A stretch of 32,044 nt of DNA, from IMG/VR virus record IMGVR_UViG_3300037628_000127, positions 1-32,044 of that record. One strand, 5' to 3'. The DNA comes from a virus. The notes beneath the pieces are model-generated. The model was not told the origin of the DNA, searched no databases, and saw only the letters and a program-made list of their open reading frames with translations. The position numbers were made by a program, and so were the translations under genes. Below are positions 1,148 through 5,545 of this stretch, one piece after another (the stretch's first letter is position 1; every line of letters starts with the position of its first letter).

Positions 1148-1360
1148 ATGAACGGATCAGATATGATAATGCTAAATACAATCAGAAAGGAGGACAGTAC
1201 CAATGAACAAGAAACGTCTATAGTCAATTCACAGAAAGATAAACAGAAACCGCAAAATGCAGGAGAGGTTCGGGATGACCAGCCCGGCCTCTCCATTATT
1301 GAACCCGAATGTACAAATCCCAACTGTCAAATATGTTTCGGTATCGATGGCAGAGGGTAA
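1148..1360 (+). CDS. Small hypothetical protein with C-terminal Cys motif; start uncertain
   Basis: An open frame of 70 codons ending in a Cys-rich tail (C-T-N-P-N-C-Q-I-C), which looks like a genuine small metal-binding or structural motif. The start is doubtful: neither the ATG at 1148 nor the in-frame ATG at 1163 has a ribosome site. The strong AAAGGAGG at 1186-1193 instead points to an ATG at 1203, in another frame, that reaches a stop after six codons (1221-1223). One extra A in the AAGAAA run at 1209-1214, or a -1 ribosomal slip there, would join that start to this frame and give MNKK-TSIVNSQKDK and onward. So this may be a frameshifted, broken or slippage-dependent gene. Confidence 0.4.
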   Translation: MNGSDMIMLNTIRKEDSTNEQETSIVNSQKDKQKPQNAGEVRDDQPGLSIIEPECTNPNCQICFGIDGRG

Positions 1361-1407
1361 TAAAAAAAGATTTTCTGAATACAGCCCTAAAGTATGGATA
1401 TTAAGCG

Positions 1408-1701
1408 TCATTCTTGGTTCTGGCAGTCGTCAAGTATGGCTTGTCGTTCTTTTTCACACTTAACCAAATCTATCTCAAAGAAATCCGCTAATTTTTGTTC
1501 TTTATTGAACCTCACATATTCCATCATAACACCACCGCAGGATTCACACTCATAACAATTAGAGCATTTTTCTTTTGGCTGTGTCATTAGCTCAATGCCC
1601 TGCTCATTCAGCCATTCAAGAAATTCCCCTATCTTCTGGCTGGCATCTCTAACCAGTAATATTTTATCTAATTCCGGTGTCTTTATTTGTTTTATTTTCA
1701 T
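1408..1701 (-). CDS. Small Cys-rich hypothetical protein, leftward
   Basis: A 97-residue protein on the minus strand, with an AGGAG ribosome site about 9 bases before its ATG. The N-terminus (MKIKQIKTPELDKILLVRDA) looks conserved, and a helical segment 'IGEFLEWLNEQGIEL' follows. The centre has a zinc-knuckle-like cluster of four cysteines (C-S-N-C-Y-E-C-E-S-C). The C-terminus is charged and helical. The family is not recognised. It converges on the rightward gene ending at 1360 and lies downstream of the other leftward gene (1734-1952), from which 32 bp separate it, so the two are probably one short leftward transcript. Confidence 0.75.
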   Translation of the reverse strand: MKIKQIKTPELDKILLVRDASQKIGEFLEWLNEQGIELMTQPKEKCSNCYECESCGGVMMEYVRFNKEQKLADFFEIDLVKCEKERQAILDDCQNQE

Positions 1702-1733: not shown

Positions 1734-1952
1734 TTAGACAGTTATTTTAACTTTGCTTATCATGCTGTTATTCATGGTCGTTGACGTGATTGTCTTATCA
1801 CCGAGCTTTACAGGCTTATCGAATTTTACTAAGCTCTTGCCCCGCATATTGACAAATCCTGCAAGATGCGAGTTGTCTTGTATTGTCGCTTGTACTTCAG
1901 TTGGTTTACTGCCAATATAACAAAATACTTTTGTACCTGCTTTATATCTCAT
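1734..1952 (-). CDS. Small beta-rich hypothetical protein, leftward
   Basis: A 72-residue protein with a clear ribosome site (GAGGTG, 7 bases before the ATG). The sequence is short beta strands with charged turns, such as 'GTKVFCYIGSKPTEVQATI' and 'KSLVKFDKPVKLGDKTITS', consistent with a small SH3/OB-like barrel. No family is recognised. It is the first gene of the leftward pair. Its 5' untranslated region contains the interlocked inverted repeats at 1971-2077. Read on the minus strand, the GC-rich arm ends in TTTTAT just before the ribosome site, which would suit transcriptional attenuation or translational control of this gene. Confidence 0.72.
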   Translation of the reverse strand: MRYKAGTKVFCYIGSKPTEVQATIQDNSHLAGFVNMRGKSLVKFDKPVKLGDKTITSTTMNNSMISKVKITV

Positions 1953-1970
1953 TTTATCACCTCAATATAA

Positions 1971-2077
1971 AAGCCGCCCGGCCAGTATGAACGCGGACCA
2001 ACGCGAATTGCCTGTAAGGAGCGAAAGACCGGAGCGGCTTGTAAGCTGAATTGATTATTTTGGTCCTTATTCATACT
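1971..2077 (-). promoter_or_regulatory. Interlocked inverted repeats: candidate pseudoknot or RNA switch leader
   Basis: Two long inverted repeats overlap in a-b-a'-b' order. Repeat a (1971-1981) pairs with 2029-2040 through 11 base pairs, mostly G-C, with a single bulged A at 2033. Repeat b (1984-2001, AGTATGAA-n3-GGACCAA) pairs with 2060-2077 through 15 of 18 positions, with a 3x3 internal loop. The two stems cannot nest; they must form a pseudoknot or be alternatives. On the minus strand the last arm of repeat a is followed by TTTTAT and then the ribosome site of the 1734-1952 gene, like a terminator/antiterminator pair. Nothing here matches a riboswitch class I know. A DNA-level role (operator, origin) remains possible. 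The 119 bases from 2078 to 2196 show nothing further. Confidence 0.6.
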
Positions 2078-2196
2078 GAAACTATCTTCGACTATTTAGG
2101 CTGGAAAGTAAAGAAAAATATATCAAGGAAACGCAAATATTACTTACAATGGCAGTACAGGCTCTATGGCATACAATAAAAAAGATAAAAAAAGTA

Positions 2197-2225
2197 TTGA
2201 CAAATCATAAAGCAAGTTGAATAAT
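2197..2225 (+). promoter_or_regulatory. Sigma70-type promoter
   Basis: The -35 box TTGACA at 2197-2202 matches consensus exactly. A 17-base spacer leads to AATAAT at 2220-2225, one mismatch from TATAAT. Transcription would start near 2231-2233 and run rightward toward the small-gene block at 2417. It lies in the gap between leftward and rightward genes, as expected for a control region, and is the best promoter seen in the window. About 130 bases after the start, an intrinsic terminator begins. Confidence 0.75.
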
Positions 2226-2268
2226 AGAGATTGCTAAATGTTGTTGTATCTGAAAAGGACTGAAGAAG

Positions 2269-2415
2269 ATGTCAATGAGGACGATTCAATCCGAAAAGGA
2301 GTGCAGTAATCATGCCTACCAGGACTACCCTTTGAATGCAAATTCAAGTATTAATCTAAACAAGCTGGGTAGAGAACATAAGAAACTATCCAGCTTTCTT
2401 TTATTTTTTAGTTAA
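2269..2415 (+). CDS. Possible 48-residue leader ORF
   Basis: An open frame of 48 codons with AAAAGGA at 2253-2259, 9 bases before the ATG. It lies between the promoter at 2197 and the start of the gene at 2417, and it reads through the terminator hairpin, so its C-terminus (SSFLLFF) is encoded by the stem and T-tract. A second strong ribosome site (AAAAGGAG, 2294-2301) precedes another ATG at 2312 that gives only a seven-codon peptide with three Thr codons. Either could be a leader peptide whose translation affects the hairpin. No family is recognised. It may equally be untranslated leader. Confidence 0.3.
   Translation: MSMRTIQSEKECSNHAYQDYPLNANSSINLNKLGREHKKLSSFLLFFS
2362..2410 (+). terminator. 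Intrinsic terminator or attenuator
   Basis: Stem 2362-2372 (AAGCTGGGTAG) pairs with 2386-2396 through 11 base pairs with one G-U. The loop is 13 bases and a T-rich tail runs to 2410. It lies 7 bases before the ATG at 2417 and about 130 bases after the predicted transcript start. It could end a roughly 180-base RNA or act as an attenuator for the small-gene operon. Confidence 0.75.
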
Positions 2416-5384: not shown

Positions 5385-5545
5385 CTCAATACGGTGGAGC
5401 GATATTTTCAGATAGATGTAAATGCGGCAGGAAGTTAAAGATGCCGAAAGAACTGTCAGTAAATGAATTTATGGCCGGCAGGGCTTTAATAGCTGAATGT
5501 CCGGATTGTGGCAAAGTCGAATCTAAGCAGACAGGTTGGAAATGA
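5381..5545 (+). CDS. 54-residue zinc-ribbon protein
   Basis: Starts in an ATGA overlap with the previous stop. The pattern C-K-C-G-R (residues 13-17) and C-P-D-C-G (40-44), separated by about 24 residues, is a classic zinc ribbon. Small ribbons like this in phages often bind nucleic acid or a host polymerase, but no partner is visible here. It is compact, with no other domain. Confidence 0.65.
   Translation: MTQYGGAIFSDRCKCGRKLKMPKELSVNEFMAGRALIAECPDCGKVESKQTGWK

Follow-up and report, generated by a model that had tools for sequence, protein, structure and literature searches.

The sequence studied here is the virus record IMGVR_UViG_3300037628_000127, whose 32,044 bases are referred to as the window. 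A leader of 126 nt (2078-1953, minus strand) lies ahead of the leftward gene at 1734-1952. In the minus-strand RNA of this leader, four arms follow each other 5' to 3' in the order b1-a1-b2-a2 and form two interlocked helices, S1 and S2. The features of the locus are listed below in the direction of the leftward operon.

2084-2112, minus strand: promoter box, from the alignment of four contigs, with -35 TTTACT (2112-2107), 17 nt containing CCTAAATAGTC, and -10 GAAGAT (2089-2084)
2060-2078, minus strand: arm b1, 5' strand of helix S1, CAGTATGAATAAGGACCAA
1949-2074, minus strand: leader ORF of 41 aa, with its AUG inside b1 and its stop overlapping the start codon of the next gene
2041-2059, minus strand: loop L1, G-poor (1 G in 19 nt)
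2028-2040, minus strand: arm a1, 5' strand of helix S2, AAGCCGCTCCGGT
2002-2027, minus strand: loop L2, 26 nt
1983-2001, minus strand: arm b2, 3' strand of helix S1, TTGGTCCGCGTTCATACTG
1971-1982, minus strand: arm a2, 3' strand of helix S2, GCCGGGCGGCTT, 0 nt after b2
1964-1970, minus strand: U-rich run TTATATT, or TTTTATATT when the last T's of a2 are included
1958-1963, minus strand: Shine-Dalgarno site GAGGTG of the 1734-1952 gene, read from the sequence
1952, minus strand: start codon ATG of the 1734-1952 gene
1734-1952, minus strand: P0001, first gene of the leftward operon, 72 aa
1408-1701, minus strand: P0002, second gene of the leftward operon, 97 aa

Helix S1 (b1/b2) comprises 16 pairs flanking an internal loop, with an energy of -24.3 kcal/mol. 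Helix S2 (a1/a2) has 12 pairs and -21.4 kcal/mol, and is made up of 7 + 4 Watson-Crick pairs, one bulged U and one G-U pair. A sequence-only reading of this DNA had described two stems arranged a-b-a'-b'; its arms and spacing hold, and its stem counts of 15 and 11 pairs are corrected to 16 and 12. The top interlocked helix pair of the leader scores 68.5, a value reached by none of 5000 dinucleotide shuffles (mean 34.6, maximum 54.5). The nested-only fold of the minus strand is of ordinary stability (z -0.56), and the signal therefore resides in the interlocked pair and not in overall stability. Scores of 50-55 occur at a handful of other places among 3398 overlapping 120-nt windows from three phage records, so that such a score alone is not unique and it is the context that makes the case.

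No Pfam or PHROG match was obtained for P0001, and its AlphaFold model is too poor for use (pLDDT 44). On the opposite strand, window positions 2197-2410 carry a near-consensus sigma-70 promoter (TTGACA-17-AATAAT, 11/12), a hairpin at 2362-2396 with a T-rich tail about 140 nt after the promoter, and, between promoter and hairpin, an 18-mer repeated at 2248 and 2289. This region could be a small rightward RNA adjoining the leader.

Relatives of the leader in other phages

The interlocked design was found behind the same promoter box in three further phage contigs, L122, L339 and L398, so that the class rests on four members. These are four otherwise different, uncultured phages, and the letters of the arms differ between them. 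A covariation search in related phages had been suggested for the arms; in the three other contigs their pairing persists, with compensation.

L122 was identified by a protein rather than by structure, as it encodes a homologue of P0001 with 78% identity, which is not the first gene behind the leader there. Its leader came to light through 43 nt of similarity to the window's promoter region and reads ATTACTCGGCTAAA ... GCCCGCCTGCGCA ... TTTAGCCGAGTAAT ... TGCGCGGCGGGC, followed by TTTATTT, AGGAG and ATG. The topology is that of the window in other letters, with a bulged U at the same position of a1, and the interlocked score was reached by 1 of 5000 shuffles. MAFFT does not align the L122 arms with those of the window, and pairs are listed per sequence without a column alignment.

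The other two members, L339 and L398, were retrieved by scanning for the promoter core together with AATCAA (at least 120 stretches) and then applying structure filters. The presence of AATCAA in the query makes the likeness of their L1 loops partly a matter of selection; the query contained no -35 element and no helices. The arms of L339 are homologous to those of the window, and the 16 aligned pairs of S1 show changes on both sides at two pairs (U-G to A-U, G-C to C-G) and on one side at a third (G-C to G-U). Its interlocked score was reached by 2 of 5000 shuffles. L398 has another set of arms; its S1 consists of 8 + 5 pairs with a 3x3 internal loop between them, and its S2 is followed by seven T. 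Helix filters that forbade overlap had missed this member; it was found by a scan starting from Shine-Dalgarno sites, and the filters were then loosened.

All four leaders share one order: S1 at the predicted 5' end, a G-poor L1, S2 abutting S1, a U-rich run, the Shine-Dalgarno site and the start codon. L1 measures 19-27 nt and contains 3 G in 91 nt over the four members, and L2 measures 9-26 nt. The gap between S1 and S2 is 0 nt in the window and in L398, -1 in L339 and 4 in L122; the helices overlap by at most one base in any member. The start codon lies 18-21 nt from a2. The G+C-rich S2 of every member (-19 to -24 kcal/mol) precedes the U-rich run, with 6-7 T within the 8 nt after its G+C-rich part in the printed sequences. 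Counted by eye, the 8 nt before the Shine-Dalgarno site contain 6, 5, 6 and 7 T; at least 6 T were thus found in three of the four leaders, compared with 14 of 168 control Shine-Dalgarno sites, which come from three of the phages and may include three of these leaders.

The promoters of the four contigs align from -35 to -10 without internal gaps. The common promoter consists of -35 TTKAC(A/T), 17 nt and -10 GATAAT (GAAGAT in the window), and the common box TTKAC-N12-TAGTCGA-NN-ATA has the helices directly downstream in all four. By its sequence the box is sigma-70-like and lies just upstream of the leader on the correct strand in each member. S1 begins 6-9 nt past the -10 box, where the start site is predicted; in the window, transcription is predicted from this box to begin at about 2076-2078, at or next to b1.

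The association between box and structure was assessed on 269 TAGTCGANNAT sites with enough sequence behind them, with all loci examined and duplicate loci left out. A TTKAC at the right distance upstream was present at exactly four of them, namely the window, L122, L339 and L398, which score 54.5-69 for interlocked helices. Among the other 265 sites, one exceeded 50 (L300, 55.5) and two reached 46. The full promoter box, therefore, goes with the structure. The L300 site, from a Sporocytophaga MAG, was dropped, as its high helix score after the motif comes without a -35 element in place. L079, L062 and similar high scorers of the Shine-Dalgarno-based scan have no such promoter box. A stricter promoter pattern was also run against the phyla of G003 and G005. 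Among 385 genomes of the former it gave one chance-like match, and among 382 of the latter none; both are weak negatives, since this pattern would miss L398.

Each phage has its own genes behind the leader, except for P0001, which is common to the window and L122. In the window, L339 and L122 the leader operon heads away from the terminase genes a few kb distant. In L398 the terminase and portal belong to other families, and the leader heads towards a clamp-loader-like gene and terminase, portal and capsid genes. With downstream genes and phage type differing in this way, promoter and leader look like a portable cassette, presumably one of phages of a single host group.

Several further elements were noted in these contigs. 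A stretch of 100 nt at 88% identity, covering the start of a small gene, is common to the L122 and L339 contigs (L318:4192-4291 and L440:3699-3798), as are 55 nt at 87% identity elsewhere; these similarities point to recent exchange or a common host. Several leader-operon genes of L122 (4480-5560, plus strand) are preceded by a nearly identical spacer, TATTAACTTTTTAAGGAGC. Between two of its genes (5486-5535, plus strand) lies a tRNA-like minihelix, AGCCCTG ... GCCGGTTCAACTCCGGC C CAGGGCT, with an acceptor-like 7-bp stem and a T-arm-like hairpin, which may possibly be an RNA processing site. In L339, a long nested hairpin, CAGCCCACACTACCGGTCAG ... CTGGCCGGGCTTGTGTGCTG, occupies positions 1349-1412 (minus strand) between two small genes behind the leader.

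Searches for described relatives gave little. No match to Rfam 15 was found in the window at gathering scores; the stretch 1700-2450 gave only two weak, unrelated matches far below gathering, and the leader stretches of the other three members gave matches only at that level. GenBank phages, plasmids and E. coli genomes contained no convincing match to the leader or to P0001. An alignment search with P0001 returned L122 only, and L123 was rejected as a relative, the match being weak (38% over 37 residues). An exact-peptide search with the large terminase subunit detected no relatives. As queries of viral contigs, AAAGCCGCCCGGCC was too unspecific, and GCGAAAGACCGGAGCGGC gave four matches whose surroundings have no such leader. 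The layout is not described in the titles and abstract openings covered by a literature search, a scope that leaves its absence from the literature unproven.

The leader as a candidate conditional terminator

The interlocked leaders of four phages point to a conserved control element heading a set of genes. The sequence-only reading had placed a leftward leader with a pseudoknot or terminator layout ahead of the 1734-1952 gene, and the three relatives and the promoter box support this. In the interpretation favored here, tentatively and with a probability of about 0.42, the element is a cis-acting pseudoknot leader, defined by structure, that serves the leftward operon as a conditional terminator, probably lifted when the leader ORF is translated. 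Transcription would start at or next to b1, within the portable promoter-plus-leader cassette. As the RNA emerges, b1 would pair with b2 to form S1, and a2 would subsequently pair with a1 to form S2, stacked on S1. The pseudoknot, with its G+C-rich S2 and U-rich run, would then act as an intrinsic terminator before the ribosome site of the first gene. A ribosome loaded on the 5'-terminal AUG and translating through b1, a1, b2 and a2 would let neither helix form, and the polymerase would pass.

When growing transcripts of three members are folded as nested structures, S1 forms first (mean b1:b2 pairing probability 0.87-0.95 before a2 is made), and S2 overtakes it later. A crude pseudoknot energy, which adds a constant to the sum of the helices and leaves out loop strain, lies below the nested minimum by 5 to 12 kcal/mol in each of the four members. 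The near-zero distance between the helices (L3) suggests that they stack and form together, and do not compete as in a classical switch. A classical terminator/antiterminator with competing stems, one of the layouts considered in the sequence-only reading, is contradicted by the same geometry, since S1 and S2 abut each other and share at most one base. Nothing thus forces a two-state switch, which counts against an attenuator. A simple terminator scan made no call on S2 plus U-run; the run is interrupted by A in all four members.

The open reading frame that would relieve termination spans all four arms. From the 5' AUG, which lies 6 nt (L122, L398) or 9 nt (window, L339) past the -10 box, the frame stays open for at least 32 further codons in every member. 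A frame of this length is not rare by chance in any single leader (shuffle frequencies 0.24-0.36 each, product 0.009), and an open frame is not proof of translation. Only three of the four members keep the same frame relative to the next AUG, and between the window and L339 the frame is shifted by an indel of one base in b1. The predicted peptide is not conserved, and those of the window and L122 matched no family.

In trp-type attenuators, a short ORF follows the promoter, and a G+C-rich stem with a U-run precedes the structural genes. The phage leaders resemble them in having a short ORF between promoter and first gene (four of four). Their G+C-rich S2 and U-rich run before the genes (four of four) may correspond to the terminator, but as a terminator stem S2 would enclose a loop of 28-45 nt, and the run is interrupted. 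They differ in that their helices interlock without sharing bases, no alternative stem overlaps the putative terminator by more than one base, the leader has no regulatory codon run or conserved peptide, and the start codon lies at the very 5' end. The put RNA of HK022, which makes polymerase read through terminators, likewise folds in the nascent transcript beside a phage promoter (PMC9378689); it consists of two adjacent but separate stem-loops, with sequence similarity between copies. The phage helices, by contrast, cross and end in a terminator-like element, and three of the four leaders have no common arm sequence.

A stronger version of the conditional terminator is less credible. It holds that folding competes in time with ribosome loading on a leaderless start codon in or at the first helix, a fixed promoter box being combined with a freely mutating, pseudoknotted 5' end in a portable unit. 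The operon would be read if the ribosome loads first, and transcription would stop if the RNA folds first.

Alternative explanations

The main rival, somewhat unlikely in our judgment, is a pseudoknot that protects the 5' end. S1, at the first transcribed bases and stacked on S2, would bury this end and shield the mRNA from 5'-end-dependent decay, with the ribosome site left free and the U-run a mere spacer. That S1 starts 6-9 nt past the -10 box in every member suits this role, as do S2 abutting S1 and ending 18-21 nt before the start codon, the freedom of the arms to vary and the crude energy advantage over nested folds. However, the start site is an extrapolation from the promoter, a plain 5' hairpin would suffice, and the U-run and leader ORF are left unexplained. 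Stabilizer stems of the ompA type base-pair the 5' end of the mRNA and leave the ribosome site free. The phage leaders are predicted to do likewise, but through a pseudoknot instead of a hairpin, and with a U-run and a leader ORF.

Translational control of the first gene, in which one fold hides the Shine-Dalgarno site and the other frees it, is improbable. Nested minimum folds of the full leaders do extend S2 towards the Shine-Dalgarno region, yet L1 pairs with this region no better than shuffled L1 does (three members, P 0.59).

Equally little probability is given to an antisense or immunity RNA acting in trans, of the type of C4, P4 CI or IsrK, whose released 5' half would pair with the 3' half of other copies while the arms diverge for specificity. 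C4 and c4-a1b1 are listed in a survey of 104 motifs (PMC2864571). C4, P4 CI and Gifsy-1 IsrK are phage RNA elements in which complementary segments stand apart from each other ahead of a ribosome site (PMC2864571, PMC4825925). The phage leaders are similarly placed, between a promoter and a ribosome site, and their arms diverge freely between phages, as immunity groups would show. In contrast, the C4 covariance model (RF01695) found no match in either of two records, the window and the L122 contig, even at E up to 10, and the small first genes matched no antirepressor family. RNAs of the P4 CI and IsrK type have complementary segments flanking the antisense segment on both sides, three copies in all, whereas each window arm occurs once with its partner: for b1, a search of the window allowing 3 mismatches gave no third copy, and the extra matches of a1 and a2 are single and at chance level within 2 mismatches.

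A DNA-level element could be a recombination site or an operator, the latter an alternative raised in the sequence-only reading. The arms are inverted repeats in DNA too, but such an element is highly improbable, because arm letters and spacings change between members while pairing is kept and the leader is confined, on one strand, to the interval from promoter to Shine-Dalgarno site; against chance repeats, of the same standing, speak the shuffles and the promoter association.

If real, the conditional terminator would represent an undescribed class of phage cis-regulatory RNA. Only topology and spacing are kept in this class, which would therefore tend to escape sequence searches and nested-structure models, and the promoter box provides a simple handle for finding further members. 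Translation-gated folding at a leaderless 5' end would become directly testable. If the race between ribosome and folding is true as well, the leader would be a sequence-independent sensor of ribosome availability common to unrelated phages.
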